From positions 1 through 43,886 of the IMG/VR virus record IMGVR_UViG_3300042466_000556: a DNA stretch of 43,886 nt; one strand, given 5' to 3'. Shown one piece after another: positions 26,228 to 43,886 of this stretch (within the stretch, counting starts at the first letter, position 1; each line of letters begins with the position of its first letter). This DNA comes from a virus. The position numbers and the translations under genes were made by a program. The notes beneath the pieces were generated by a model, which saw only the letters and a list, made by a program, of their open reading frames with translations, searched no databases and was not told the DNA's origin.

Positions 26228-26773
26228 TCATCTATCGGCGTTAGGTGGTCTTTCAATCAAAGCCTTTTCCACTTGCTCTTTTGATGGTGCCTCAATAGGA
26301 ACCCATGCTCTGGAGTAGTTATGTTGTGGAATTTTGCGCTGTTTTAGCAGTCCACCAGCCAGCATCAAATCAACCTCATCAGGGGACATGATTAGTAAGT
26401 CTTCTAATTCCTCGGAAGAGTACTTGTCGGACAAAACAATAGATTTAAGCATCTTGGAAAATGGTTTAGCAAACATCTCGCCACGAGCACGATTCAAACG
26501 GACATGCATAATCATCGCATCAATTAAATCTATATCTTGATACATCACAGGAATCTGCTTGCCGTGCTTCTTGATAAATGCAGGTTCTCCAGCCACGACC
26601 CATCGGTGATGACCGTCAATAATTGACATATCTTCCACCCGAACAATGATTGGCTGAAGCCACCCAAAATCAGACATAGAAAGACGAAGCAATTCCAAGT
26701 CAGGCTTCAAAAGATAGTTAGCCCGCCACGAAGAAGGCTTTATTGCGTTGTTGGGAATGTATTCAATTTTCAT
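26228..26773 (-). CDS. ParB-like nuclease/partner protein (IbrB-like)
   Basis: 181 residues. The ParB/Srx fold is seen in IRYIP-type start (IEYIPNNAIKPSSWRANYL), FGWLQPIIVR, the signature IIDGHHRW (52-58) and LNRARG (93-98). A helical C-terminus follows. It overlaps the upstream PAPS-reductase gene (ATGA). ParB-fold plus PAPS-reductase pairs resemble the E. coli IbrA/IbrB pair and DndB/C-type modules. ParB-like proteins of this group may bind nucleotides or nick DNA; no catalytic residue can be assigned with confidence here. Confidence 0.82.
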   Translation of the reverse strand: MKIEYIPNNAIKPSSWRANYLLKPDLELLRLSMSDFGWLQPIIVRVEDMSIIDGHHRWVVAGEPAFIKKHGKQIPVMYQDIDLIDAMIMHVRLNRARGEMFAKPFSKMLKSIVLSDKYSSEELEDLLIMSPDEVDLMLAGGLLKQRKIPQHNYSRAWVPIEAPSKEQVEKALIERPPNADR

Positions 26774-27936
26774 ATGTTGTCGTCCAGTGCATCCATGTCA
26801 TTTAAGTCGTTTTCTGTTTGTTGAGCAGCCAGCATTCGCATGGTGTGTGCTCTTGTTTTAGGTCCCACGGGGTTTGGTGAAGATACTTGGAACTCATTCA
26901 ATAGGAGTGTTCGTACGAGCGAGTCAATCGGGTAAGAGTATGGGTCGCCTGATTGCTTACGCTTAAATTCGCCAGCAAACTTATATGCAGCCGCCTGATA
27001 ACCAGGAGTAAGCATGTTGTCCTCAATGCAGTCCTTAACCCCATCCCATCCGCGAGATACATAGTCGGCAATCAAGCCTTCTACATTGAAATGCTTCCAC
27101 CAGCGACGCTGTGCATCAATATGGGGGTAGCACTCGTACAGTCGGTCGTAGAACCCTGGCTCGGTAGCCACAACATCGCCAATACGGCGAGACGCAACTG
27201 CGTGGAGTGGAATTCCCACTCTTGTATTGCTTCCAGTTATTGCGGCAAGGTCGTAGTACTCGCAATATTCACCGTTGTGTTCTTCGGTGATGAACTTCAG
27301 AACATCGTCCGTTGTCCAGTCGTAAATAACTTTAGCGAAACGCAAAGGCACTGACTTCTTCATGCGGAAAGGAATATTTATATAGTTCTCATGCAACTTC
27401 TGAACACAGGAGCGGTAGCGAATCATTGACTCGTTAGCCCGAACACCAGTAATAAAAGCGGTGCGACCCTTCTTGCCTTGCATCGTATAGAAGTCGATTG
27501 TCTCGGGAATTGGGCGTGTTGGGTCAATACCGAAATGCTCTGCCTTGATTGCAAAAGAAGGCATCTCACGAATCAACATATTTCGTTTTGCCCGCTCTGG
27601 AGACCAAAGCAAACAATATTCTCTCCTACCCAAAACCCAGACTTCTTGACCCACTGGAAGGCAATACCATTCCATGTCAACCCAGTCGTAGTCTCTGACT
27701 TTCATGATGAAATCAACAACTACAGGACTGACCATTTCTTCATCTCTGAAGATAACTTTTACTGGTCCGAGCCCACGCTCTTCGTGGATTTCTTTTGCAA
27801 GATACAGAATCGCAGTGGAATCTTTTCCACCCGAGAACTGAACACACACAGTGTCAAAAGTATCGTAAACATGACGCATGCGTTCACGAGCAGCATCAAC
27901 ACAAGATATGTCTAGAAACATTCTTTGCCTAGTCAT
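26770..27936 (-). CDS. PAPS-reductase-family protein (IbrA/DndC-like)
   Basis: 388 residues. The PP-loop FSGGKDST (34-41) after a hydrophobic strand identifies the adenine nucleotide alpha-hydrolase superfamily. IFRDEEMVSP, and FITGVRANESMIRYR match the PAPS-reductase/IbrA set, with a tail typical of DUF3440-type proteins (VPLRFAKVIYDWTTDDVLKFI, GEYCEYYDLAAI). It can adenylate or transfer sulfur; the role in phages is not known. The next gene is a ParB-like partner, overlapping by four bases. It lies in the recombination/terminase block, not the morphogenesis block. Confidence 0.85.
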   Translation of the reverse strand: MTRQRMFLDISCVDAARERMRHVYDTFDTVCVQFSGGKDSTAILYLAKEIHEERGLGPVKVIFRDEEMVSPVVVDFIMKVRDYDWVDMEWYCLPVGQEVWVLGRREYCLLWSPERAKRNMLIREMPSFAIKAEHFGIDPTRPIPETIDFYTMQGKKGRTAFITGVRANESMIRYRSCVQKLHENYINIPFRMKKSVPLRFAKVIYDWTTDDVLKFITEEHNGEYCEYYDLAAITGSNTRVGIPLHAVASRRIGDVVATEPGFYDRLYECYPHIDAQRRWWKHFNVEGLIADYVSRGWDGVKDCIEDNMLTPGYQAAAYKFAGEFKRKQSGDPYSYPIDSLVRTLLLNEFQVSSPNPVGPKTRAHTMRMLAAQQTENDLNDMDALDDNI

Positions 27937-27948
27937 CAGAACCCCAAA

Positions 27949-28461
27949 CTAAGCATCAATAAGGTTCTCTTCGGTGATGTCATCAAATGCCCATCTACCT
28001 TCAAGACTTTCCCAAAGCGCAATGTCTATCGCTGTTGGTTCAAGGTCGTATTCTTCCATAAGTGCACGATGCTCACTAATTGCTTTCCGCAGAAACTCAA
28101 CCGTCTTCAGTCGTTCTTCAACTTCTTCGCCGCCCATAGCAATCATGCGAGAAATCTCATCAAGACGGGCTACCACATGGAACTTAAACCGTTCAATCTT
28201 TGTCCGACGGAAGGCAAAGTTGGCTTGTAGTTCCAGAACCATTTTACGGCTATCGGGCGTACCATCGTCATATCGTGCTAGTTCGTCTTGCTCTTGGCTT
28301 GTAATCAACGCTAACTGATTTGCCAAGTTGTCATTCAGGACAGTTACTGCCCGTTTCCATCTAACCCAGTTTTCTGGGAGCATCAAATATTCTTTGTGCT
28401 GACGACTTGTTTGGTTTTTTACTTCTTCCGCAACTATGCGGGCAAACGAATCATCGTTCAT
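27949..28461 (-). CDS. Hypothetical helical protein in recombination block
   Basis: 170 residues, not recognised. Mostly helical with charged coiled-coil-like segments (QALITSQEQDELARYDDG-like region, LQANFAFRRTKIERFKFHVVARLDEISRMIAMGGEEVEERLKTVEFLRKA). The start shares bases with the stop of the nuclease gene (TAATG). Its first residues, MNDDS, and the 23 bases spanning its start match those of the 173-residue gene at 29886. A DNA-binding or terminase-accessory role is possible only by position. Confidence 0.68.
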   Translation of the reverse strand: MNDDSFARIVAEEVKNQTSRQHKEYLMLPENWVRWKRAVTVLNDNLANQLALITSQEQDELARYDDGTPDSRKMVLELQANFAFRRTKIERFKFHVVARLDEISRMIAMGGEEVEERLKTVEFLRKAISEHRALMEEYDLEPTAIDIALWESLEGRWAFDDITEENLIDA

Positions 28462-28470
28462 TATTTACTC
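28448..28470 (-). repeat. 23-bp start-site repeat, copy 1
   Basis: Spans GAGTAAAT, the ATG and MNDDS codons of the 170-residue gene. It differs from copy 2 (30394-30416) at two positions (21/23). Not explained by Shine-Dalgarno alone. Confidence 0.7.
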
Positions 28471-29273
28471 CAACTTGGGCAGATGCTTTTATAGGCACAC
28501 CAGTCGCACAAGCGATTTGGTGTAGGTTCAAAAACTCCAGAGGCGCATCTGTTATCTATTTGTTCTCTGACTTCTGTAACTACTTTTTTTACTTCAGCCA
28601 TATCTTCAGGCTTGACAGTATGGGAAAGTTTTATGGAATCTTTAATATAGAGAAGTTCCAGTTCAACAACTGGCTTCCCTAGTTGCTGTTCCAAAACATA
28701 TCCGTAAAGGCATAACTGGAAAAACTTATCTTCCCTAAATCTAGGCGCAGGGGTCTTGCCAGTCTTATAGTCGCCAACAACGATTCCGCCATCAACTTCA
28801 TGCCAACGGTCAATGAACCCCTTAATGGTGACACCATTGATGGCATCATCAAGTTGCGTTTCAATACCATCAAAATTTAACTCGCTAGGGTTTTCCATGC
28901 CGAAAAGATTTTCAACACACCACCATGAAGTCCATCGGAACATTTGCAGGGCTTTAGCACTACGAGTAATTTCCAAAACCTTGTCATAGTATTCTTCATC
29001 CCATAAAGATTTAGCCAATTGCTTGGCTGTCTCAATAGTTCGTTCTTCACTTGGAAGACCGTACAAGGTCTCCAAAATAGAGTGAACAAAGTTTCCTCGG
29101 AGGGTTGCTTCCGTGGGTGGCTCTGTCAATCCATCTATGCGTGAATACTTATACTTCAGCGGACATTGCTGAAATGTCGATATAGATGAAGGGGAAAGAT
29201 ATGGGGGCGCAACGAGAGGTATATCACTCGCTGACAACAGTCGCACCTTCAAATGACAAGCGGACACACTCAT
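28461..29273 (-). CDS. RecB/Cas4-like PD-(D/E)XK nuclease with Fe-S cluster motif
   Basis: 270 residues in the longest frame. Nuclease features: RGNFVH (59-64), GFIDR with Asp155, DYKTG with Asp168 and Lys170, and QLCLYGY (Gln186, Tyr190). Cys37 near the N-terminus with Cys256, Cys259 and Cys265 (CDWCAYKSIC) forms the four-Cys Fe-S arrangement known in Cas4 and AddB. It probably works with the Rad52-like annealing protein. It overlaps that gene by 50 bases; a TTG start near 29237, behind AAGG, is a plausible shorter alternative. Confidence 0.87.
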   Translation of the reverse strand: MSVSACHLKVRLLSASDIPLVAPPYLSPSSISTFQQCPLKYKYSRIDGLTEPPTEATLRGNFVHSILETLYGLPSEERTIETAKQLAKSLWDEEYYDKVLEITRSAKALQMFRWTSWWCVENLFGMENPSELNFDGIETQLDDAINGVTIKGFIDRWHEVDGGIVVGDYKTGKTPAPRFREDKFFQLCLYGYVLEQQLGKPVVELELLYIKDSIKLSHTVKPEDMAEVKKVVTEVREQIDNRCASGVFEPTPNRLCDWCAYKSICPSWSK

Positions 29274-31812: not shown

Positions 31813-31989
31813 ATGGGAATGTTTAATTTTTTGAAGAACCGTTGGAACCGCGCGAATGCTGCTCATGTGTTGATGCTGTCGTTCGTTTTGTCTAATACAA
31901 TAGGTGGTTGGATTATATCACCATCAATAGGACTGATTATTTTCGGTGTGTGTTCAGGTATCTACGGATACCTATTAGGGCGTGAATAA
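31813..31989 (+). CDS. Small two-span membrane protein before portal
   Basis: 58 residues, ATG 31813 to TAA 31987-31989, sharing its last base with the portal ATG (TAATG). A basic N-terminus (NFLKNRWNRANAAH) precedes two hydrophobic segments (VLMLSFVLSNTIGGWII, then SIGLIIFGVCSGIYGYLL) and ends GRE. The coupling with the portal makes translation likely. It could anchor the portal/prohead to the membrane during assembly, or act as a holin-like peptide. An alternative start is ATG two codons downstream. Confidence 0.72.
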   Translation: MGMFNFLKNRWNRANAAHVLMLSFVLSNTIGGWIISPSIGLIIFGVCSGIYGYLLGRE

Positions 31990-34169
31990 TGGCGTGGAAT
32001 TCGTTCGATAACAAGTCGGCACAAGATGGGCTGCAAACTAAGTCCATCTTAAACGCTGGCGCACCAGTGGCATTTAACTCTGCCGCTGCAGGCAAGCCTT
32101 ATAAGGATTCGTGGGACATTGAGCGCGCGTACCGTGAAGGACTCCAAAAAGTAACTTGGGTGTTCAGGTGCATTGACGCAATTGCGGGTAACCAAGCGCG
32201 TCTCCCTATGGTCTTGCGAGAAGATAACTCCCCTAATGGAAAAATCGCTGGCAAAAATCATGCCTTGATGGATATTTTGAACTCCAAGTCAAATATGGGG
32301 GAAAACTCCTTTATTTTCCGCTATCGCTTATCTTCTCAACTTCTGATGAGCACCCGTGGTGTATTCATTGAAAAGGTAAGAGGTCGTGATGGTGCAATTA
32401 ATGCACTTCACCTTCTACCACCACAGCACACAGCACCAATCCCAGATGCCAAGACTTTCGTATCGGGATATGAAGTTGACATGCGAAATGGCACAAAGAT
32501 TATTTTGAAGCCTGATGATGTTATTTGGATTCGTCGCCCACATCCTCTCGACCCGTATCTTTCAATCACGCCAATGGAATCTGCTGGCATCGCAATTGAA
32601 ATTGAAAACCTTGCGAAGCAATACAACAGAAATTATTTGATTAATGACGGTCGTCCTGGCGGTCTTCTTGTTGTTCGTGGCGAAATGGACGACGATGACA
32701 AAGATGAGTTGCGTAACAGATTCCGTGGCAATATTAGTCGCGCAGGTGCTACCACTGTTATCTCTTCTGATGATGGTGTTGACTTTGTAGATACATCGGC
32801 ATCTCCCCGTGATGCTGCATATATGCAGATGCGTCAAATCACCAAGGAAGAAATTCTTGCTTCGTTTGGTGTTCCAGAATCAGTTATCGGAAACGCGGCA
32901 GGTCGCACCTTTAGTAACGCTTCCGAAGAACTTCGTGTTTTCTGGATGGAGACAATGCTTCCCCACCTTGAGCCATTGGCACGAGGACTTGATGACCTTG
33001 ATGAGAAGTTCTACATTGACTTTGATACTTCCGAAGTTCCAATTCTTATCGTTGCAAAGCAAGAGCGTGCTCGCTACCTGATGGACGAATTTCAGCAGGG
33101 TCTAATCAGCGTGAACGAGTATCGTGACGGAACTGGCAAGAAGAAAGTTGATTCTGAACTTGCAGACAGTCTCCTGCAGAACCCGAACCAGACTCCAATC
33201 GCAAACACTGAGAAGGCTTTCAAGCCTGAACAGCAAGTACCTGTTGATACTCCAGTTACTCCAGCAGGTGCTGAAGCAGCATTGCCAACTGGTCCTCCTG
33301 GTCTTGGACTCACATCTCCAGAAATGCCAGCCGCTCCTGAAGCACCCGCAAGTCTCGAAAATGTTGCACCACCAGTCAACACACTTTCAGCCGAATCTTT
33401 TGACATGGAAACAAAAACAGTCATCCCTCAATACGACGATTGGGATACCAAGGCAGAGCAAGACAGTGACCGATGGACTGAAATTCTTGACCGCGCACTA
33501 GAGCGTGTTTATGAACGCCAACAGCGTGTTGTTCTTGAAAAAGCAACAGGTGTAAAAGCCCGCAAAGCCTTGGCTGGCAAGGGAATCGATGCTTCCGCTA
33601 TCTTTGATATTGATTCTTGGGATAAGCAAATCCAAGAAGACATCATGCCAGTTCTCCGCTCTGTAGCAATTGACGCAGTAAGCCTCATGTCGCAAAAGAA
33701 TGGCATTCCTTCAGAGGTTAATGAGCAAGAACTCAACGCCATTATTCAAGACCAGACAGACCGTGTCAAAAAGGCTAACGGCACAACAAAGGAAGAAATT
33801 GTTGCTGCTTTGTTGATTGTGATGGCTATGAGTGAAGACGAAGACAGGGCTGGAATGCTCCGTGCTGCTCTATCTGCAATCTTTGCAAACTTGATGGGTC
33901 GCCGTCGCCGTGTTATTGCCGAGCAAGAAGCACAGACTGCTCATAATGCTGGAGTTTTCCTTAGCGCAGCAAATGACTCAGATTTAACCAAGACATGGAT
34001 GACTCGTAGGGATTCCAAGGTTCGCAGTGCCCATCTTTTGCTTCAAGGAAAGACCATCGGGCTGAATGAAGGTTTTGCTACCGATGGAGCAAGTCTTAGA
34101 TTCCCTGGTGACCCTTTGGCTCCGATTGAACTAACAATTAACTGTCGTTGCCGTCTCCGCGTAGGGTGA
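31989..34169 (+). CDS. Portal protein fused to MuF-like head morphogenesis domain
   Basis: 726 residues. Residues about 1-400 match HK97-type portals: WVFRCIDAIAGNQARLPM, PDDVIWIRRPHPLDPYLSITPM, LAKQYNRNYLINDGRPGG, QITKEEILASFGVPESVIG, ERARYLMDEFQQGLISVNEYR. A Pro-rich linker (about 400-465) leads to a C-terminal MuF/SPP1 gp7-type domain about 480-726: WMTRRDSKVRSAHLLLQGK and the signature FPGDPLAPIELTINCRCRL. Portal and MuF are usually separate genes; here they are fused. The fusion would place the MuF domain on the portal ring, inside the prohead. Confidence 0.92.
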   Translation: MAWNSFDNKSAQDGLQTKSILNAGAPVAFNSAAAGKPYKDSWDIERAYREGLQKVTWVFRCIDAIAGNQARLPMVLREDNSPNGKIAGKNHALMDILNSKSNMGENSFIFRYRLSSQLLMSTRGVFIEKVRGRDGAINALHLLPPQHTAPIPDAKTFVSGYEVDMRNGTKIILKPDDVIWIRRPHPLDPYLSITPMESAGIAIEIENLAKQYNRNYLINDGRPGGLLVVRGEMDDDDKDELRNRFRGNISRAGATTVISSDDGVDFVDTSASPRDAAYMQMRQITKEEILASFGVPESVIGNAAGRTFSNASEELRVFWMETMLPHLEPLARGLDDLDEKFYIDFDTSEVPILIVAKQERARYLMDEFQQGLISVNEYRDGTGKKKVDSELADSLLQNPNQTPIANTEKAFKPEQQVPVDTPVTPAGAEAALPTGPPGLGLTSPEMPAAPEAPASLENVAPPVNTLSAESFDMETKTVIPQYDDWDTKAEQDSDRWTEILDRALERVYERQQRVVLEKATGVKARKALAGKGIDASAIFDIDSWDKQIQEDIMPVLRSVAIDAVSLMSQKNGIPSEVNEQELNAIIQDQTDRVKKANGTTKEEIVAALLIVMAMSEDEDRAGMLRAALSAIFANLMGRRRRVIAEQEAQTAHNAGVFLSAANDSDLTKTWMTRRDSKVRSAHLLLQGKTIGLNEGFATDGASLRFPGDPLAPIELTINCRCRLRVG

Positions 34170-34279: not shown

Positions 34280-36262
34280 ATGAGCGACACCGCACTTTTT
34301 TCTGAAACCCTATATAAGTCCATTCCTGGTCAAATTAACATTGACGAAGCGCAAGGCATTGTTGAGTGTTTCGTTGCTGGCATTGGCAATAAGGACTCTG
34401 TAGGCGATATTTGCGCCACAGGCTCATTTACTGAAAGCCTCAAGCGCCGCAAGCCTCGCGTTGTCTGGGGACATAACTGGAACGAGCCAATCGGCAAAGT
34501 CCTTGATATTTACGAAGTTGCACCAAACGACCCTCGCCTTCCAATGAAGATGAAGCGCGCTGGCATCGGTGGTCTTTACGCTCGTGTTCAATTCAACCTC
34601 AAATCCGAGCGTGGTCGCCAAGCATTTGCTGATGTTTCATTCTTTGGCGAAGAACAAGAATGGTCAATCGGATACAAGACTCTCCGTGCAGACTACGACC
34701 AAAGCCGTCAGGCAAATGTCCTTAAAGAAGTAGAACTTTACGAAGTTTCCCCAGTTCTTCACGGTGCAAATCAACTTACTGGCACAATTTCTATCAAAAC
34801 CGATGAAATCAGTGCAGTTAAAGGTCATGGCGAGGACTACCCACGCGGTGAAGACGGTGGTATTCCAGCAGCAAACCCTATGAAGGGACGCGAAGATAAT
34901 CTTCCTAAAGCACTTGCTACGCGTTTCGGCGGAGCCGTTCGTATGCGTAGTGCCGACAAGAATATTGCCATTTTTGACCATATGAAAGATGGCAAAATGA
35001 CGACAATGCGTGTTTCTTACCATTTTGATGGTGATGAATTCATGTTCGGCGATGCGGTTCGCGTGAAGCCAGAAACCGTCTATTTGCCCGTTGAAGGCGA
35101 AGACGACGACAAGCCAATGATGCCAGAAAATGACAACAAACCAGAAACCCCGTTTGAGGAACAGTACCGAGACGAAATCACTGAAAACCCATCAACTCCA
35201 CGAGACATTCAGCCAAAAGCATGCCAATGTGGCGGAGCATGTGGTGGAGAAAAAGTAGAAGAACTTAAAGCCGCGCCTCTTGATGCAATCCCTCAAGAGC
35301 GTTTCACTGGTGATGTTCTCCGTGGTTACGGACCTCGTCGTGGAAACCTTGAGAAGTTGCTCAGGTACTGGCGTCCAATCATGCGTAAAGAAGGCGGATT
35401 CCGTCGTTGCCGTGTGATTTTGGCTGACCACCCAGAACTTTACCCTTTGAACAACATATGTGCTTGGTTGCATCACGAAACCACTGGTCTTTGGCCGAAT
35501 GAAGGATGTCATCATCCTGGTATGAAAAACTGCCGAAACAAGATTAAAAAAGGCATGAACGGCACCTTGTGGAATGACTCCGAATGGAACGACCGTATGG
35601 ACAAATTGCGTTCCGCAGGTAAGAGCATGGACGATGGATTTATGTCGGCAGACGACAACGACGAGGATTACCAGAAAATGTCTGCCGAGGATTGGGAAGC
35701 CAAGGCGATGATGGAACTAAAGACATATGTTGACCAAGAACCAGAGTTCATTTCCCATATCGGTAAAAACGAAAACTGGGAGCATGTCGGGGACGACGAA
35801 GACGGTAAAGAATTTGCTCACCCATTGATGGCTGACGGCAAGGCTGATGGCTGTGGTTGTGGAAACAAGCCAACAGTAACCGTTGCTCCAAGTCCTGAAA
35901 TGGGAGTCATGATGGCTCTTTCTGCTCTTGAAAAGACAATCAATCAAAGTATTGAACAGAAGGCTGGACGGGTAATCAATAATCGCAATATGGAAAAACT
36001 CCGTCAAGCGATGAAACTACTTGAAGATGTTGTAACTGCCGCCACCCCAACTGTTGAAGTGAAAAACGACAATAGTGGAGTAATTAGTGCACCTTTAGAG
36101 GAACTTGATGCAATTAAGGCTCATATTCAGCCAATCATTGAGTACCACAACATTAACGCCTCACTGGCTGTTGATGGTATAGAGTTTGCGTTCGTAAGTT
36201 CAGAGGCTAAGTCTGCTCTTACGACAGCAATGGAATCGTTTAGTTACGACTTTAATCGTTAA
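34280..36262 (+). CDS. HK97-type prohead protease with long C-terminal extension
   Basis: 660 residues, about three times a normal U35/S78 protease. Protease domain about 1-170: His65 in WGHNWNEP, Ser129 in EWSIGY, and Glu155 region in YEVSPVLHGAN. Residues 208-270 form a second beta-like domain (RFGGAVRMRSADKNIAIF, VSYHFDGDEFMFGDAVRV). Cys-rich patches (CQCGGACGG, 315-322; GCGCG, 524-528), a domain with HPELYPLNNICAWLHHETTGLWPNEGCHH (384-412), and a coiled coil (about 546-590, EKTINQSIEQ... NMEKLRQAMKLLEDVV) follow. The last part looks like a scaffold. The capsid gene is not in the window. Confidence 0.85.
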   Translation: MSDTALFSETLYKSIPGQINIDEAQGIVECFVAGIGNKDSVGDICATGSFTESLKRRKPRVVWGHNWNEPIGKVLDIYEVAPNDPRLPMKMKRAGIGGLYARVQFNLKSERGRQAFADVSFFGEEQEWSIGYKTLRADYDQSRQANVLKEVELYEVSPVLHGANQLTGTISIKTDEISAVKGHGEDYPRGEDGGIPAANPMKGREDNLPKALATRFGGAVRMRSADKNIAIFDHMKDGKMTTMRVSYHFDGDEFMFGDAVRVKPETVYLPVEGEDDDKPMMPENDNKPETPFEEQYRDEITENPSTPRDIQPKACQCGGACGGEKVEELKAAPLDAIPQERFTGDVLRGYGPRRGNLEKLLRYWRPIMRKEGGFRRCRVILADHPELYPLNNICAWLHHETTGLWPNEGCHHPGMKNCRNKIKKGMNGTLWNDSEWNDRMDKLRSAGKSMDDGFMSADDNDEDYQKMSAEDWEAKAMMELKTYVDQEPEFISHIGKNENWEHVGDDEDGKEFAHPLMADGKADGCGCGNKPTVTVAPSPEMGVMMALSALEKTINQSIEQKAGRVINNRNMEKLRQAMKLLEDVVTAATPTVEVKNDNSGVISAPLEELDAIKAHIQPIIEYHNINASLAVDGIEFAFVSSEAKSALTTAMESFSYDFNR

Positions 36263-36277
36263 AGGCTGGATAGTTAA

Positions 36278-37675
36278 ATGGGCTATACTGCTAGTAACGG
36301 TTTACCGAAAATTTCATACAAATTCCAGTGCGTTGTTTCATCCGAAAAACGGATGCAGCCATGTGCTGGATGTTCAAATCCTCAAGGTTGTCTGACATCA
36401 ACCATGCATTACAAGGAGTCACTAAAGATGACAGATAACCCAACAGTGGAACTTCTTCCCGACGGTTCAGTAAAGTGTGCAAAAGATTTGCCAATCGCAG
36501 AGTGCGGTTATAAGGCAGGCGACAAAGTTTGCGGCAAGTGTGGCGCTACAGCCATTCAAGCAAAATCAGAAGATGCTGAGATTCTCTCAGACATTGAAGA
36601 TGGCGAATGGGTTACTGCCGACCTTGAGTCCAAGGGTGGAAAAAAGACACCAATCGCAGAGATGGTAGACGAAGACATGGTCGACGCTCCAGAAATCACT
36701 GCTGATGCCGACATGGTTGACGACGAGGATGCTGACAGCATGCCTGCAAAGCGCAAGAAGGCTCGCAAGGCTCGTCTCGCTGCTATGGGTGTTAAGTCAG
36801 AAGAAATCGACGACGATGCATTCGTTTGTGCCTTTGAGCGCAAAGTTCTTCCTAACTCCGCTCAAGTATGCGCATCATGCCCTGGTGGCTGTGCGTCAGA
36901 AGACGGCATGCCATCACTTCTTGAAATTGAAGGCATTGCAATGGACATGTTCTCAGGCAAAGTCCTTGACTCTGGATATGCAGACAAGAACGACATGTTC
37001 GTTGTTGACATTGAACGCAAAGATGGCAAGCCTATTGAAGCATTCTTTGATGGAACTTCAGGCGAGTGCCTCGGTTGGCATATGCTCAACAGTGATGTCA
37101 TCGGTGAAGTAACAGAGATTGATGGAACGAAAGTAATTTCGTTCGCTGACGCTGGTGAACTTGCGGTTAAGAGCATTGAAGGCGATGTTGTATCAGTTGA
37201 TGCAGACATGTTTGAAGGTCATGACGCATACGCAGTAGAAGTTGACGGTCTTGATGGCAAGTCATACGATGTGTATGTTTCTCTTGATGGAGAAGTCCTC
37301 GGCTGGGATGAGTATGAGGCTGAAGAAGCAGCAGAAATTGATGCAGAAATTGCAGAGATTGCACTCAAGGCTGCTTACGACGAAGATGCTCGTGCCGAAA
37401 TGGCTGACGCTGGCGAAGCAATGCCTGAAGGTGAATTCCCAATCAAAAATGGTGAAGACCTCAAGAATGCAATTCAAGCATACGGTCGTGCTGGTGACAA
37501 AGAAGCAGCAAAGGCTCACATCATGAAGCGTGCAAAAGAACTTGACATGGAAGACATGATTCCTGAGTCATGGGCTGAAGACGCTCCAGTAGAGAAGTCT
37601 GCTGAATCTCGTCAACTCATCGCTGACATGATGGAACTTGAATTGCTTTCAATTGAAACTGAACTTGGAGAATAA
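36278..37675 (+). CDS. Cysteine-cluster and PepSY-like acidic protein, probable capsid accessory
   Basis: 465 residues from ATG 36278. Four-Cys clusters: C18-C29-C32-C38; C67-C76-C85-C88 (CGKCG); C184-C198-C201-C205. Clusters one and three have the same F-x-C...C-x2-C-x(3-5)-C layout. Two PepSY-like beta repeats follow at about 214-268 and 293-347. Residues 386-432 (FPIKNGEDLKNAIQAYGRAGDKEAAKAHIMKRAKEL) match a helical phage head-associated motif. The body is acidic. A second start (ATG 36428, behind GGAG) would remove the first cluster and might give a short form. It probably binds metal or Fe-S and acts near the capsid. Confidence 0.72.
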   Translation: MGYTASNGLPKISYKFQCVVSSEKRMQPCAGCSNPQGCLTSTMHYKESLKMTDNPTVELLPDGSVKCAKDLPIAECGYKAGDKVCGKCGATAIQAKSEDAEILSDIEDGEWVTADLESKGGKKTPIAEMVDEDMVDAPEITADADMVDDEDADSMPAKRKKARKARLAAMGVKSEEIDDDAFVCAFERKVLPNSAQVCASCPGGCASEDGMPSLLEIEGIAMDMFSGKVLDSGYADKNDMFVVDIERKDGKPIEAFFDGTSGECLGWHMLNSDVIGEVTEIDGTKVISFADAGELAVKSIEGDVVSVDADMFEGHDAYAVEVDGLDGKSYDVYVSLDGEVLGWDEYEAEEAAEIDAEIAEIALKAAYDEDARAEMADAGEAMPEGEFPIKNGEDLKNAIQAYGRAGDKEAAKAHIMKRAKELDMEDMIPESWAEDAPVEKSAESRQLIADMMELELLSIETELGE

Positions 37676-37958: not shown

Positions 37959-39878
37959 ATGTCACTTCCATATGACGCCAATCAACGCGCTTTAAATTTG
38001 TCTAAGGCTATATCTGAAGTTAAAGGCAATATTGTTTTTAAAGGCTTCATGGGCCCGACAATCAAGGATGATGTAAGTCTCCCATCTCTTGGAATCCGTG
38101 CTGCTCGTAGTGCGGGGGTAATTGTTGATGACCTCGGGAAAATGCGTTGTCCACCAGGGACTCCGAACGCTAATCAGTTCACTGACCTACAGATGAGTAA
38201 CTGTATGGTTCCAAGTGCAGAAACAATTGCTAACGCTGCTGCTGAAGCATTATCAAGTCTGTTGCCTGGTAAAGAACCGACACCTGTTGAGCGTGCTATT
38301 GGAAAACTTACTGATTCTTCAGATTTGGCTGGACTTCCTAAAGTAGACCATGCAACATCTGCACAAATTAAAGAGTTCAATGCCGAAATGCTCGCCATGG
38401 CTCCAAAGTGGGGTCGCGTTGATGACGAATACATCAAAAGGATAAATGATACTGGTTACTACTCCACAGCCATTAGGACACTGACAGAGCGACAGGCGTT
38501 ACGCAGGGAGCAGATGGCGAAAAAGATTTCCAACCTTCGCCGCATGATTGAATCAGGCGCACAGACAGATGAATCAGGATTTCCATTTCATAGAGTGATA
38601 GACCCCAAAACTCATGAATTCATCCTCACGCACACCGATGAAGAAGTAATTGAGGCGATTGAACAGACCGCATTAATAATTGCAAAAGCACGCAAACCCG
38701 AAGCATCAGTATGGGCTAAAGGGGAGCATCTAGAAGCATATTTAACAGATGGTTATCGTCCAATGTCGGAAGGTGCATCGGATGCCAAAGTTGGTGAGGC
38801 TATGACTTCCTTGCTTGGCAACCGTGGGAAATTTGAAGCGAGCGTTGGGGCGGAATATGGTTCTGGTGTTCGCCCCGTGTACGGCTTTAGTCGCTTCACT
38901 TTCTGGGACGATGAATTAAAACGAATCACGGATGAGAAAAACCTAAAAGAAGGCGAAGAAGTGTTCAGCACAGACCACTACCTAACCGTTCCTGGTAGAG
39001 GTGCGGGTGGAATTGGTGGCTACGAGGGGGCATTTGCTGGCGACGCAATCGGCTATGGAGACATGGAATTTGTGCTTCATGCAGAGGTGGCGGATAGAAC
39101 GACAATACATCACAGGGACAGCCTTCTCAATCCAGCAAGAGGTACTGCCGCGGTTGATGCACCAGACGAGGAATTGGTTGAGGCAATTATTGGTCACTTG
39201 ACCGACAGTGACATTGACGACAACATAAATCGTCTATTAAGAACTCATGTTACGCAAGATTTTGTTAATTGGACTAGGTCGTCGGGAAACAACGAAGAAA
39301 ACTTAAATCCAAACGGTCAATTTACGGAATCAAATATTCTTGGGGGATTCACCGCTCAAGACATCAAGGAAATTAAATTTGACGCACGGAGACTCTTTCC
39401 AGAATACAAAACACGGTTCAACCCTGACGGTATTGACGGCGCGGAACTGATTCAAAAGATTGAAGACCAGCATTTGTCTACGGAACAGTTACTTGCAGCA
39501 GGTTTTACAATGGGCGAGATTGAAGTTGCCCGTGCAAAAATTGCAGGATGGAAGACAAAAAACGCCGAAGGCAATCAGGGCAAGAATCAGGCGTCTGCAA
39601 TGGAGAGCGAGTTGAGTCTCAATGGTTTAATATCGGCTATGGAAATGGAACGAATCACGGCATTGGTTGCTGAAAAGGCTCCGAACGCCAAACTTATTTT
39701 TGGTTCTCCTAATGGTCTAGATTTGAGTGACCCCACAAAATATGCAGGCGGTAAGGCTGGAGACCTCATCACCGATATTTGGGCAGAGCGCATGCGCGTA
39801 CAGTTGCTTAAAGATGTCCAAAGAGAAATCCAATGGGCAGCGGCACCGCCAACCCCAGTCGGCGAAAGTGTTGCGTGA
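37959..39878 (+). CDS. RCPxG-motif protein with RPVYG/YGD/RTT module
   Basis: 639 residues. RCPPGTPNANQFTD with C64-x17-C82 is near the N-terminus and is shared with two downstream genes. A helical region follows (about 135-245). Residues about 245-390 form a module with YLTDGYRPM, RPVYGFSRF, then YGDMEFVLHAEVADRTTIHHRDSLLN. From memory a similar R-P-x-Y-G...Y-G-D...R-T-T...D-S-L module occurs at the C-terminus of some phage MuF-type proteins, but this is unverified. The C-terminus is helical and acidic. Position between the protease and unseen capsid genes suggests an internal head or injected protein. Function unknown. Confidence 0.7.
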   Translation: MSLPYDANQRALNLSKAISEVKGNIVFKGFMGPTIKDDVSLPSLGIRAARSAGVIVDDLGKMRCPPGTPNANQFTDLQMSNCMVPSAETIANAAAEALSSLLPGKEPTPVERAIGKLTDSSDLAGLPKVDHATSAQIKEFNAEMLAMAPKWGRVDDEYIKRINDTGYYSTAIRTLTERQALRREQMAKKISNLRRMIESGAQTDESGFPFHRVIDPKTHEFILTHTDEEVIEAIEQTALIIAKARKPEASVWAKGEHLEAYLTDGYRPMSEGASDAKVGEAMTSLLGNRGKFEASVGAEYGSGVRPVYGFSRFTFWDDELKRITDEKNLKEGEEVFSTDHYLTVPGRGAGGIGGYEGAFAGDAIGYGDMEFVLHAEVADRTTIHHRDSLLNPARGTAAVDAPDEELVEAIIGHLTDSDIDDNINRLLRTHVTQDFVNWTRSSGNNEENLNPNGQFTESNILGGFTAQDIKEIKFDARRLFPEYKTRFNPDGIDGAELIQKIEDQHLSTEQLLAAGFTMGEIEVARAKIAGWKTKNAEGNQGKNQASAMESELSLNGLISAMEMERITALVAEKAPNAKLIFGSPNGLDLSDPTKYAGGKAGDLITDIWAERMRVQLLKDVQREIQWAAAPPTPVGESVA

Positions 39879-39879
39879 C

Positions 39880-40356
39880 ATGATTGACAAAAAAGAGTTT
39901 CCCATACCAGTTGCATCGGTCGGTAAGGCGATTATCTACACTTGCCTAAAGCCTGAGTCGCCAACATATGACGGCTATTTTTCTGAGGACGGGTTAGATA
40001 AACCAATCAAGGTTTACGCTTTGTACTTTCACCTAAACGATGGTGGAATTCAATCAAAACTTGACGAATGGCGTCTAATAGATACAACAGAGTTTCATAA
40101 GCAGTTTTGGGAAATGCCTTCACGCGCAGAAAAGATGGACACAGAAAGATGGATAGCCATGTTTTCTACCCGTTCAGAGCCCATGACCCCTGATATTCTT
40201 ACAAGTGTAGGAATAAAGCCAGAAGAAATATATGGCAAACTGGGCGAGAGCACTAAAGAGCCTAAATCAGCCCTTGCTCAAAATGCTGACAAGCGTGCCT
40301 TTGATTTTAGAAAAAAAGCATCAAAACCAACCGTTCGGAGAAACAATGCAGGATAA
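39880..40356 (+). CDS. Hypothetical protein
   Basis: 158 residues from ATG 39880, one base after the preceding stop; a longer frame starts inside the previous gene and is probably a shadow. The sequence (SVGKAIIYTCLKPESPTYDGYFSEDGLDKPIKVYALYFHLNDGG, then QFWEMPSRAEKMDTERWIAMFSTRSEPMTPDI) is unrecognised. It lacks the C-x17-C motif of its neighbours. The C-terminus is basic (DFRKKASKPTVRRNNAG). It overlaps the next gene by 11 bases, so the two are probably coupled. Confidence 0.7.
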   Translation: MIDKKEFPIPVASVGKAIIYTCLKPESPTYDGYFSEDGLDKPIKVYALYFHLNDGGIQSKLDEWRLIDTTEFHKQFWEMPSRAEKMDTERWIAMFSTRSEPMTPDILTSVGIKPEEIYGKLGESTKEPKSALAQNADKRAFDFRKKASKPTVRRNNAG

Positions 40357-42265
40357 TGAAAGCGTTCTTCCTGTACGCAAGCGTGTTGGTTCAGACTTCC
40401 AAGTAAAAGTTGGACTTATTGGCTCGCAGTCTGGCGCAGTACAGGCTGGACAGGCAGTTGCAAGCACATTGATTCCTGGCAACCTTTCTCCTCTTCGTAG
40501 CCCTTTAAAGTCAACCCTCTTTTCTGCTTTAACTCCAGGCAAAGTCAATATTCGTGGCATTCCACGACCAGGCAATGGCGTATCTCGCTGTCCTGCTGGC
40601 TTTCAACACGGTGGACGCTTCACCAATAACCAGTTCAGCACATGTGGTGCACAGTTGTTTGACATTCCTGGTCCGCTAGCAATTGCAAGCGCTTTAATTC
40701 GTGGAGTCCGTAACGCTTCGTCTGGTCGTGCGCAGGCTGAAAACATCTCGGAAGTCGTAACTGGTGGTCAGACATCTGGAGTTTCTGCACAAATCAGCCG
40801 TATGGCTCAGGTACCTAAAAGCGGTGCTTTTAACGCCAAGAAAGTTGCTGAAGTAGTAAAGAGTTCAATCAACACATTGACTGGTGCCCCATCTGGTGAA
40901 GCACGGCTAATCAGGAAAGATGGCTACCTCCTGAAGCCAATCGTTCCTTCTTCGGTATTACGCAACTTTGGCGGGAACCCCGACATGCAGGACGGCGTGT
41001 TTATCCGTTCTATTCAAAAGCCGTCAGACATTATTGGTGATGACCTTGCTTTGTTGTCGGGCCCAGCAATCCAGCAAATTACTTATGTCGCACCAAATGG
41101 CTCACAGATTTCCATTCAACGCCAGCGTATATTAACTACTGGTGAGAAGCGCAAGTTTGGTCGCCAACTCAATGCAGCCGCTGCTGCTTCTAGTTCCCTT
41201 GATGTCGGAAACACAATTCGTGAGTTTGCCAACAATTCGGGTGGAGCGTTCAAGTACTCCGAGAAGTTCCCCAACATTGAAAGTCCTTTAGATTTAATCA
41301 ATGTTACTGATGACAAGAAAAAGAATGTCCAAGTGCGTCGTTGGGTTTATGAGACATTCATGAAAAATGGTAAAGGCAAACCGTTAAGTTCATCAACCAT
41401 GCGCGAGTCGGCAACACTTCGTGAAGATGGCGGTTCATCAACAGACTCCCCATCTAGCGTCCAAGAAGCAATTGCTTACATTAAAAACGGTGGTGACCCA
41501 TTTGATGTTCCGCAAGAGTTTCTCGCTCAGGCACTATCCGCTACTGACATCTACGAACAAGAAAACCTCAATACAGGCGTGGTCAAGTTCAGCAAAGGTG
41601 ACGGGAACGCAATCTATCAAGTTCCAGAAACAGTGAAAAATGGCTCCATTGCTGAGCGCATCTATTCAGACATTGCATCACAACTTGGACTCCAAACAGC
41701 ACCAGCACGATTCATAAAGACCCCCAAGGGACGCAGTACCGTCCTTGGTGACGCAGTGCCAGATGGCTACAAACTTGACCTCAATGCCCCTCTCAAAGAT
41801 GTTGACCACGGAGATTTGTTGCGTATCGCAATGAGTGACTTTGTCTCAGATAAGCGTGGGCGTTCACCTGCAACTATTACACCTGTCCGTTCTGGAGCAA
41901 AACTCACGGTCGTTCCTACCAGTAATGAATTATCGCTTGGTGCAGGATTAACAACAGCAGAAATAAATGTCAGGTATAAACTTGACTTACCTTCGTACTT
42001 GACTACCCGTGAAACTGCAACATACAAAAAGGCTTACGACGGCATTAGTGAAGAAGCCAGAAAAGTATTAAGCAGATTGTATGATAATATTCTTAATAGG
42101 GCAGAAAAATTTAAATGGGATGAATACATATCCCGATTGACTGCAGATGGTGAACTTTCTACAGCAGAGAAGGCACACATTTTAATCGTACGGAAAATAT
42201 ACGACAATCGCCTCAAAGCATTAAAATCAAACAAATCACAATTTTTATCGTTGCTCGGAATTTAG
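40346..42265 (+). CDS. RCPxG-motif protein with possible degenerate kinase-like region
   Basis: 639 residues from ATG 40346, chosen because GGAG lies five bases upstream. RCPAGFQHGGRFTNNQFSTC gives C82-x17-C100. N-terminal and central parts are Ala/Gly/Ser-rich. Residues about 400-560 (VVKFSKGDGNAIYQVPETVKNG, AERIYSDIASQLGLQTAPARF, HGDLLRIAMSDFVSDKRG, then TVVPTSNELSLGAG) resemble HipA or PI3K-type small kinase folds without the expected D-x-H-x-x-N catalytic pattern, so a pseudokinase is a weak guess. A helical C-terminus (EARKVLSRLYDNILNRAEKF) ends it. Internal or co-packaged head protein is likely. Confidence 0.68.
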   Translation: MQDNESVLPVRKRVGSDFQVKVGLIGSQSGAVQAGQAVASTLIPGNLSPLRSPLKSTLFSALTPGKVNIRGIPRPGNGVSRCPAGFQHGGRFTNNQFSTCGAQLFDIPGPLAIASALIRGVRNASSGRAQAENISEVVTGGQTSGVSAQISRMAQVPKSGAFNAKKVAEVVKSSINTLTGAPSGEARLIRKDGYLLKPIVPSSVLRNFGGNPDMQDGVFIRSIQKPSDIIGDDLALLSGPAIQQITYVAPNGSQISIQRQRILTTGEKRKFGRQLNAAAAASSSLDVGNTIREFANNSGGAFKYSEKFPNIESPLDLINVTDDKKKNVQVRRWVYETFMKNGKGKPLSSSTMRESATLREDGGSSTDSPSSVQEAIAYIKNGGDPFDVPQEFLAQALSATDIYEQENLNTGVVKFSKGDGNAIYQVPETVKNGSIAERIYSDIASQLGLQTAPARFIKTPKGRSTVLGDAVPDGYKLDLNAPLKDVDHGDLLRIAMSDFVSDKRGRSPATITPVRSGAKLTVVPTSNELSLGAGLTTAEINVRYKLDLPSYLTTRETATYKKAYDGISEEARKVLSRLYDNILNRAEKFKWDEYISRLTADGELSTAEKAHILIVRKIYDNRLKALKSNKSQFLSLLGI

Positions 42266-42266
42266 T

Positions 42267-43886
42267 ATGGAAACAGCATTCATCATCACAGACAAAAACA
42301 AGATGCCCTATGCAGTAGTCAGCATTTTGAAGGGTGGTACAGAATTTCACCCTCTGTCTGAGAACGCCAAGACATGGTCTGGTTGGATGAACGATGAGTA
42401 TGCAGTACGCCAAGTGACCAAGGGTCAACTCACGGCGACACTTGATAATTCCATGTCCGTTGAAGGACCTATTGCTTATGCCCGCAATAACAAACTTCGT
42501 CTTGATGAACTGATTGCTCAGGCAAAGAAGATTCCCGTAGTAGAGCAAATTGAAGGCAAGAAGAGCGTGGATGAACTTCAAATCATCTCCATCTTGGATG
42601 CTCAACTTTCTCAACTAGATGACAGTGAATGGCATAACGCAATCCAGTTCAAGGCTGGTGCTTTTGTCGCTGACTCCAATAAGGCTTCAATGAACTTTGA
42701 AGTCAAGAGGACTCGCGCACTTTGGGATGCTGGCTTGTCTATTCCTGGCACAAATCGTCGTGGCGGTTGGCGTTGCCCACCAGGGATGGCTTTTGGTGGT
42801 CAAATCACTGACCGTTTTGGTCGTAACTGTGGCGCTGGTCTTGCTCGTCGTTTAGCCAATGGTCTTCAAAATGTTGGTGAACGAATTGAAAATGCTGATG
42901 ATGCAAAGCGCGGCAAGCGTGTTGCGCGACGCAACGCTGCTATGGGTCGCCGTCTTGCTGGCGCAGGCGCTATTGAACGAGGCGCAGGAAGAATCGCTGA
43001 TGCTTTAGAAACAAACTTACCGAAGGCTCCTGCTGGTCGTGTAGTCGGTGCACCAGTACGGAAAATTAGAGGTGCTGGTGTTGTAGAACGAGGTGCAGGG
43101 CGTCTTGCTGACGCACTAGAAACCAAGCCACCTAAAGTTCGTGGTGCAGGTCGTATTGAGCGCGGTGCTGGTCGCCTTGCAGATGCTCTTGAAACTAGAC
43201 CACCAAAGCGTACGCGCATTGGTCGTATTGAGCGTGGCGCAGGAAGACTGGCTGACGCACTTGAAACACGCCCACCGAAAGTAAAACCAAAACGCACCAT
43301 CGTCGGAGAAGCAGACAGAACTCCAATTCGTGATAATGCTATTCGTCGTGGTCTCCGTGATATTGCGCCAGACCTCATGGCTTATGCCGAAGGTGCTGAA
43401 GCAGGAGTTCGTGGACGCAGAAACCCTGTCTATGAAGGAACCCCCGAGAAACTTCCAAGTGGTGGAGTTCGCAAACCTAAAGCACCTAAAGCGGCTGCAG
43501 CAACTGCAAAGCCTCGTAAACCACGAGTGGCACCAGTCGCCCCTAAAAAACCCAAGGCTCCGAAGGAACCAAAGTTGGTTGATGATGTAAGTGGCATCCC
43601 TGTACCAAAGGGACTTCCAAGAAATAACGAATCTCTTTCTGACTACATGACTCGTAAGTACAACGAACATCAAGAACAAATTCGTTTGATTCAAAAAGGT
43701 GGCGGCAAGGCTGGATTCTTGAAGCGTCCTGAGTGGGACAAGTTCCACGGTCCAGAGGTTGAGGCTAACTGGAAGAAAAAGAATGCTGGTCGCGCTGCTC
43801 GTGCTACTGCTTCTGACGCAAAAGCACCGAAGAAACCAGTTGCACCAAAGAAACCCGCAGCACCTAAAAAGCCATTTGATTCACCC
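42267..43886 (+). CDS. RCPxG-motif protein with GAGRLADALET repeats and basic tail (partial)
   Basis: 540 codons to the window edge, open. ATG 42267 one base after the preceding stop. N-terminal 160 residues are ordered (AFIITDKNKMPYAVVSIL, ISILDAQLSQLDDSEWHNAIQF). RCPPGMAFGGQITDRFGRNC gives C170-x17-C188. From residue 234, four copies of RGAGRLADALETxPPK are present at spacings of about 37, 24 and 24 residues. The C-terminus is rich in KAP/KPK runs (KPKAPKAAAATAKPRKPRVA, KKPVAPKKPAAPKKP), like histone H1. Strongly basic: DNA-associated head protein is the best guess. Confidence 0.7.
   Translation, partial: METAFIITDKNKMPYAVVSILKGGTEFHPLSENAKTWSGWMNDEYAVRQVTKGQLTATLDNSMSVEGPIAYARNNKLRLDELIAQAKKIPVVEQIEGKKSVDELQIISILDAQLSQLDDSEWHNAIQFKAGAFVADSNKASMNFEVKRTRALWDAGLSIPGTNRRGGWRCPPGMAFGGQITDRFGRNCGAGLARRLANGLQNVGERIENADDAKRGKRVARRNAAMGRRLAGAGAIERGAGRIADALETNLPKAPAGRVVGAPVRKIRGAGVVERGAGRLADALETKPPKVRGAGRIERGAGRLADALETRPPKRTRIGRIERGAGRLADALETRPPKVKPKRTIVGEADRTPIRDNAIRRGLRDIAPDLMAYAEGAEAGVRGRRNPVYEGTPEKLPSGGVRKPKAPKAAAATAKPRKPRVAPVAPKKPKAPKEPKLVDDVSGIPVPKGLPRNNESLSDYMTRKYNEHQEQIRLIQKGGGKAGFLKRPEWDKFHGPEVEANWKKKNAGRAARATASDAKAPKKPVAPKKPAAPKKPFDSP
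42966..43286 (+). repeat. GAGRLADALET tandem repeats
   Basis: Four near-identical 11-residue cores (GAGRIADALET, then GAGRLADALET three times), each with flanking RIERG and PPK elements. The DNA copies differ at many third positions, so the repeats are kept by protein selection rather than recent duplication. Confidence 0.85.

Follow-up and report, generated by a model that had tools for sequence, protein, structure and literature searches.

What could lead several otherwise different proteins of one phage to carry the same short element with two cysteines? This question is raised by IMG/VR virus record IMGVR_UViG_3300042466_000556, a single record of 43,886 bases that was analysed over its full length and is referred to here as the window. 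In its head-gene region, three proteins, named A, B and C, share an element with the consensus R-C-P-x-G-x6-[FI]-T-[DN]-x5-C, in which 17 residues lie between both cysteines. Judged from sequence comparisons, the element may well be an N-terminal virion-loading module carried by cargo proteins, which would be effectors delivered at infection. The three copies, already described with their cysteine positions in an earlier note on this DNA, were all confirmed and are located as follows.

38145-38204, + strand: motif of protein A, RCPPGTPNANQFTDLQMSNC, with C64 and C82 of the open reading frame (ORF) 37959-39878
40586-40645, + strand: motif of protein B, RCPAGFQHGGRFTNNQFSTC, with C82 and C100 counted from the start at 40346 (C120 and C138 in the longer ORF)
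42771-42830, + strand: motif of protein C, RCPPGMAFGGQITDRFGRNC, with C170 and C188 of the ORF 42267-43886

The numbering C82/C100 used earlier for protein B fits a gene start at 40346. The number of motif genes had to be raised from three to four: L001, a longer contig of the window phage from which full-length C and D were taken, encodes protein D (842 amino acids (aa); L001 17624-20152, downstream of C) beyond the window end. Protein D carries RCPPGMAFGGQITDRFGRNC as well, the motifs of C and D being identical over 20 residues in this phage.

Conservation and genomic confinement of the element

Hidden Markov models (HMMs) of the motif region were built from relatives of one protein class each and scored on the ORFs of the window. 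The class C model recovered the other two window proteins at E 2e-8 and 9e-8, the class B model at E 2e-7 and 5e-6, and the class A model at E 8.5e-5 and 3.7e-3, with the next-best window ORF at E ~0.5 or worse. Over the three models, 200 shuffles of the window proteome scored at most 10.9 bits, and therefore the weakest link, from the A model to B (8.2 bits), cannot stand alone. In viral contigs, the forward DNA pattern of the motif matched at least 120 stretches, as did a separate class A DNA pattern, and the reversed DNA pattern had no match among 2.9 million viral contigs. IMG/VR relatives found through protein A bear the element in all three of A, B and C. The cysteine spacing is 17 in 242 of 243 loose matches, the sole exception seen being RCPPESGYTAGQFTNRFGRGC (L046 6022-10224, + strand), with 18 residues between the cysteines. 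Since this count is partly forced by the first pattern, relatives of B were also collected using a query without the motif region. Among the 79 such relatives with readable upstream sequence, 77 match the motif pattern, the remaining two carry the motif with FA instead of FT, and the spacing is 17 in all 79. The HMMs, the reversed pattern and the unconditioned B relatives together rule out a chance or low-complexity origin of the motif. Most relatives were gathered by motif-derived patterns, and the counts given here are not to be read as frequencies; the contigs are fragments, and tblastn E-values are relative to the fetched candidates.

A motif HMM search, as proposed in the earlier note, found two to five copies in each of 16 viral records (15-160 kb), in a single cluster on one strand. 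Each of the 16 records holds a single S78 prohead protease, which lies upstream of the motif genes. In all 15 records in which the major capsid gene is present as well, the motif genes are confined to the interval between it and the protease gene. The sixteenth record (15.5 kb) stops before the capsid gene, and in G009 the protease match is split over both record ends, which was read as circular permutation. The major capsid protein was identified via PF05065 and is 50-55% identical to the capsid protein of Gordonia phage GMA6; in L001, its gene lies downstream of D. The location between the prohead protease and the capsid genes, which had been a guess in the earlier note, is thus borne out by the coordinates of both. 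The window itself encodes a contractile-tailed phage with tail sheath, terminase large subunit, portal-MuF and S78 prohead protease, and A, B and C follow the protease on the + strand.

31989-34169, + strand: portal-MuF fusion (phrog_2662, 2.3e-96; MuF-type phrog_2468)
34280-36262, + strand: S78 prohead protease with a long cysteine-containing C-terminal extension (Pfam PF04586, 2.7e-11)
37959-39878, + strand: protein A, 639 aa, only two cysteines
37962-38213, + strand: conserved N-terminal module of A (residues 2-85), which holds the motif and is common to 15 other class-A proteins
40346-42265, + strand: protein B, 639 aa, only two cysteines; longer ORF from 40232
41459-42262, + strand: C-terminal domain of B (residues 372-639), HipA/CtkA/PI4K-like kinase fold, predicted pseudokinase
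42267-43886, + strand: protein C, first 540 of 1003 aa, only two cysteines, cut at the window end

Outside the motif, cysteines are scarce. Across 188 motif proteins they number 1.12 per 1000 aa, whereas other ORFs of the same loci have 7.27; in 100 of the 188 the motif pair provides the only cysteines, where 4 such proteins are expected at the background rate. As the tail genes of the window are also cysteine-poor (roughly 3 per 1000), this scarcity is suggestive and not decisive.

Domains attached to the element

Motif proteins range from a few hundred to ~3,400 residues, the largest being cut by contig ends, and the motif is positioned ~50-320 residues into the protein. Across the relatives, the same N-terminal element is found on proteins with unrelated C-terminal enzyme domains. 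The 15 class-A relatives of A are 498-2897 aa long, and the most distant of these share only 37-90 residues around the motif; 38 complete class-A proteins fall into 12 distinct C-terminal clusters. One 2690-aa motif protein combines RNase_T (1.1e-13) with ADPrib_exo_Tox (1.7e-9), NUDIX domains are present in motif proteins (1.4e-15 and 8.4e-12), in L126 together with a weak HipA_2 match, and the 3361-aa protein of L058 holds sigma70 r4, helix-turn-helix and PolyA_pol-like domains. Further RNase_T, KTSC, DUF3626 and Mor domains occur in other class-A proteins. In L018, the class-A N-terminal module is followed by a different tail, which bears a PI3_PI4_kinase domain (2.1e-7) that is above the Pfam cutoff only there and weaker in several others. 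Of 195 distinct motif proteins, many of them truncated at contig ends, 26 have DRHxxN kinase-type loops as called by pattern and not by profile. Called in the same way, the zincin signature HExxH is borne by 27 of 29 giant class-A proteins, where its position is similar and mostly 200-460 aa into the post-motif stretch; the background in other ORFs is 0.114 per 1000 aa. No HExxH zincin was identified in the window's own proteins. Sixteen proteins, of up to ~3,400 residues, hold two motif copies per chain, ~330-390 residues apart. These include L058 1-10086 (- strand) and L126 6020-12775 (+ strand), in which B- and C-type genes are apparently fused.

Proteins A, B and C of the window have no convincing match in Pfam or PHROGs. 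The C-terminal part of A gave no match to PDB profiles, and its AlphaFold2 model offered no usable structure (predicted local distance difference test (pLDDT) score of 34) for lack of relatives. A DUF3626/ADP-ribosyltransferase identity of A, considered from a likeness of RPVYG...YGDMEFVL, was not confirmed by profile, with no PF12294 match in the window; elsewhere, PF12294 matches a relative in L014 (3.6e-5, below the cutoff) and one other class-A protein (1.3e-10).

Protein B belongs to a family missing from PHROGs, and a PDB profile search gave nothing usable. Its AlphaFold2 model, made from a 39-member alignment, has low confidence over most of residues 1-155, with a pLDDT below 50 in the motif region, and a pLDDT of mostly 85-95 in the C-terminal domain. 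In Foldseek, the model matches CtkA (3.6e-5) and HipA (3.8e-5), with template modelling scores normalised by target of ~0.5 and ~0.3, respectively, which is a fold-level match only. At the catalytic positions, B of the window has KRGRSPAT in place of NxDRHxxN and PTSN in place of IDxG, and the His, Asn and metal-binding Asp of kinases are unconserved at these positions among 48 relatives.

Full-length C (L001 14309-17320, 1003 aa) has a C-terminal kinase domain that lies past the window end. The catalytic motifs are intact in C (DNQDRHGRN...VIDNG) and in D (VRDRHAGN...PIDQG), and K, E, DRH, N and D are invariant in a 9-member alignment; a profile search matches PI4K catalytic loops only weakly (0.0033). 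By sequence, C and D thus have the residues that define PI4K/HipA-type kinases. In hhalign, the kinase domains of C and D align with the C-terminal domain of B as homologs (probability 99%, E 4e-18). Because the domain of B has lost the catalytic His and Asn and the metal-binding Asp, B appears to be a pseudokinase paralog of C and D. The earlier statement that the three proteins are unlike each other outside the motif therefore holds within the window but not for full-length C, the kinase domain of which is homologous to the C-terminal domain of B.

Possible functions of the element

If the element is a loading module, each phage would make two to five tagged proteins from the interval between the protease and capsid genes. 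The module of 40-90 residues, probably flexible and with two invariant cysteines, would dock onto a common partner in the prohead, for which the core, portal-MuF, the protease and the delta domain of the capsid protein are candidates. Docking before DNA packaging would trap the fused cargo in the head, from which it would later be injected along with the DNA. Such cargo would be polyvalent, including kinases, the conserved pseudokinase B, zincins, NUDIX, exonuclease, ADP-ribosyltransferase and transcription-type domains, and the zincin metallopeptidases may cut the giant chains, possibly by autoprocessing. An extended form of this proposal, which we consider unlikely, is that the two-cysteine loop is a modular loading signal in which the cysteine pair acts as a covalent or metal latch that keeps cargo in the prohead, to be released in the reducing host cytoplasm. 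With such a latch, several polyvalent effectors and kinases of up to ~3,400 residues could be packed per head across a large uncultured myophage group.

Several points weigh against a loading module. The sequences themselves show that the module is shared, invariant and confined in the genome and that the domains behind it are swapped; presence in virions, docking, injection, zincin autoprocessing and any disulfide or metal at the cysteines are inferred, and effector domains alone do not prove delivery. The motif lies far into the protein, unlike the 10-residue capsid-targeting sequence (CTS) of phage T4. Part of the sharing is descent by duplication, because the kinase domains of B, C and D are homologous. 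In addition, conservation over 20 residues exceeds that of most short targeting signals, and the element could have a structural or catalytic role. The main alternative, possible but rather doubtful, is a structural knuckle, in which the element would be a small fold stabilised by a disulfide or metal and would serve as an assembly contact of an internal core or scaffold rather than as a sorting tag. The knuckle would be formed by an intramolecular bond between the cysteines or by zinc held between two copies, and the enzymes would be fused to structural core proteins. The invariance of both cysteines, their fixed spacing in the loose matches and in the unconditioned B relatives, the scarcity of other cysteines, with none in 100 of the 188 proteins, and the presence of several paralogous motif proteins per phage are all consistent with this explanation. 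On the other hand, structural proteins of this phage are cysteine-poor in general, so that the scarcity is only partly special, and the motif is not confidently folded in the AlphaFold2 model. With only two invariant residues of ligand type, a metal could be bound only if a second copy or further ligands took part; a single-copy zinc knuckle, with only two cysteines and no conserved His, is unlikely on sequence grounds. A disulfide or metal knuckle and a role as a tag, both named in the earlier note, are mutually compatible.

Plain paralogy, in which copies of an ancestral motif-kinase gene arose by duplication in the head region and kept the motif as part of a homologous domain with a function unrelated to targeting, would explain the homology of the kinase domains of B and C/D, the identical motifs of C and D, and the two fused copies in 16 chains. 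It is nevertheless improbable, as unrelated enzymes take the place of the C-terminal domains behind a retained motif, and plain descent would not preserve 20 residues while the remainder is lost. More improbable still is a recognition site for the S78 prohead protease, at which the motif would be bound or cut in head maturation. In its favour, the protease gene always precedes the motif genes in the cluster they share, and the protease bears its long cysteine-containing extension; however, the proteases of T4, phiKZ and SPN3US cut after a short x-x-E and not at 20-residue elements (PMC9026906, PMC5694885), no Glu is conserved in the class A and C motifs, and the motif HMM has no match at the capsid gene, itself a usual substrate of such proteases. 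Among the functions suggested earlier, a capsid-targeting or packaging tag is thus favoured by the swapped enzyme domains and the confinement between protease and capsid genes, and protease recognition gained no specific support.

If the loading module is real, a single short pattern would suffice to enumerate what an abundant uncultured phage group carries in its heads, many unannotated giant proteins included, and the question of which proteins are injected could be answered by sequence search. The module would further be a second capsid-targeting signal, chemically different from the T4 CTS, and a possible address label for packing foreign proteins into phage heads. Even if the element is purely structural, it defines a family missing from PHROGs, that of protein B.

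Relatives, neighbouring genes and known systems

The motif-bearing phages form one large, mostly uncultured myophage group. The portal is 39-44% identical to those of Gordonia phage GMA6, Brevibacterium phage Cantare and Streptomyces phage Gilgamesh, and the protease is related to that of Gordonia phages. In cultured phages, no homologs of A or B were found by tblastn, and the motif peptide gave only chance-level matches up to E 10. The head regions of GMA6, Gilgamesh, Cantare and Gordonia phage ChisanaKitsune contain no motif by HMM or pattern. Between the portal and capsid genes, GMA6 has an ADP-ribosyltransferase gene (L138 4863-5978) and Gilgamesh a 13.9-kb giant gene (L139 4979-18853). 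The cargo locus may therefore predate the tag, since motif-free cultured relatives keep such genes there. The likeness of the portal, protease and capsid sequences to those of actinophages points tentatively to Actinobacteria as the host. Four contigs from metagenome-assembled genomes carry the motif (L134-L137) and are assigned to Phycisphaerae, Verrucomicrobiales and, in two cases, one Gammaproteobacteria bin. They are probably phage contigs in bins, and these taxa are too inconsistent to name a host.

The C-terminal extension of the window's protease comprises ~480 residues with CQCGGACGG, CHHPG and DGCGCG stretches, and few of its cysteines are conserved among relatives. Other genes seen in the window are listed below.

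36278-37675, + strand: 465-aa protein with 13 cysteines, encoded beside or close to the protease gene in the loci read
39880-40356, + strand: small conserved, motif-free gene between A and B (MIDKKEFPIPVA...)
26770-27936, - strand: phosphoadenosine phosphosulfate reductase-like auxiliary gene (phrog_2302, 2.1e-71)
28461-29273, - strand: exonuclease-like gene (phrog_69, 8e-34) with 8 cysteines, possibly Cas4/RecB-like with an Fe-S cluster
1-1402, - strand: ORF cut by the window start, with the N-terminal nucleotide-binding signature GSGTAGLITALILRR; judged by eye, possibly a flavin-dependent halogenase

In the 465-aa protein, C67, C76, C85, C88, C184, C198, C201 and C205 are kept in all eight relatives compared, with a spacing like that of zinc ribbons, and a role as partner of the motif proteins is speculation. 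Homologs of the small gene between A and B, of 142-199 aa, are found at the same place in L004, L006 and L007.

The proposed loading tag is apparently undescribed in the literature searched. A search with motif fragments found nothing relevant in a coverage that lacked bioRxiv preprints and most subscription papers. A functional precedent for a short N-terminal element common to otherwise different proteins is the T4 CTS. It spans ~10 residues at the very start of Alt and internal proteins, is removed by gp21 at L/I-x-E, and is borne by proteins, including an ADP-ribosyltransferase, that are packaged before the DNA and injected (PMC9026906). The motif differs in position and build, with 20 nearly invariant residues and two cysteines placed ~50-320 residues into the protein, and has no sequence relation to the CTS. 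In SPN3US and phiKZ, N-terminal propeptides of ~100 residues on diverged paralogous head proteins, including ejection proteins, have been inferred to target these to the prohead (PMC5694885); these phages belong to a different group, and the available part of that source describes no cysteine element. MuF polymorphic toxins combine a common N-terminal head-associated domain with variable C-terminal toxins and are encoded beside the portal gene; in SPP1, the portal of each capsid has one or two MuF copies (Jamet et al. 2017, PMC5576092). The window phage, by contrast, has its MuF domain in the portal fusion, and its motif proteins share a cysteine element encoded downstream of the protease; no MuF match was obtained in A, B or C with Pfam or PHROGs.

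Phage polyvalent proteins are very large multidomain proteins that are encoded near late or virion genes of portal-terminase phages and have been proposed to be injected; their chains combine zincin HExxH peptidases, ADP-ribosyltransferases, kinases and nucleic-acid enzymes (Iyer et al. 2017, PMC5512222). The location among virion genes of a portal-terminase phage is shared with the motif proteins. The giant members among the relatives also join disparate domains in one chain (RNase_T with ADPrib_exo_Tox, and the proteins of L126 and L058), and the zincin HExxH hub is shared by the giant class-A relatives, as judged by motif. In the window phage itself, B, C and D show a kinase-type domain only, and none was identified in A. 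The kinases are of PI4K/HipA type, whereas those described in PMC5512222 are protein-kinase domains without the C-terminal subdomain. The main text of that paper does not use the word cysteine, does not mention HipA, DUF3626 or KTSC, and describes no shared short N-terminal cysteine element. A further difference from polyvalent proteins is that a single short module links several separate genes in each genome, among them that of a conserved pseudokinase.

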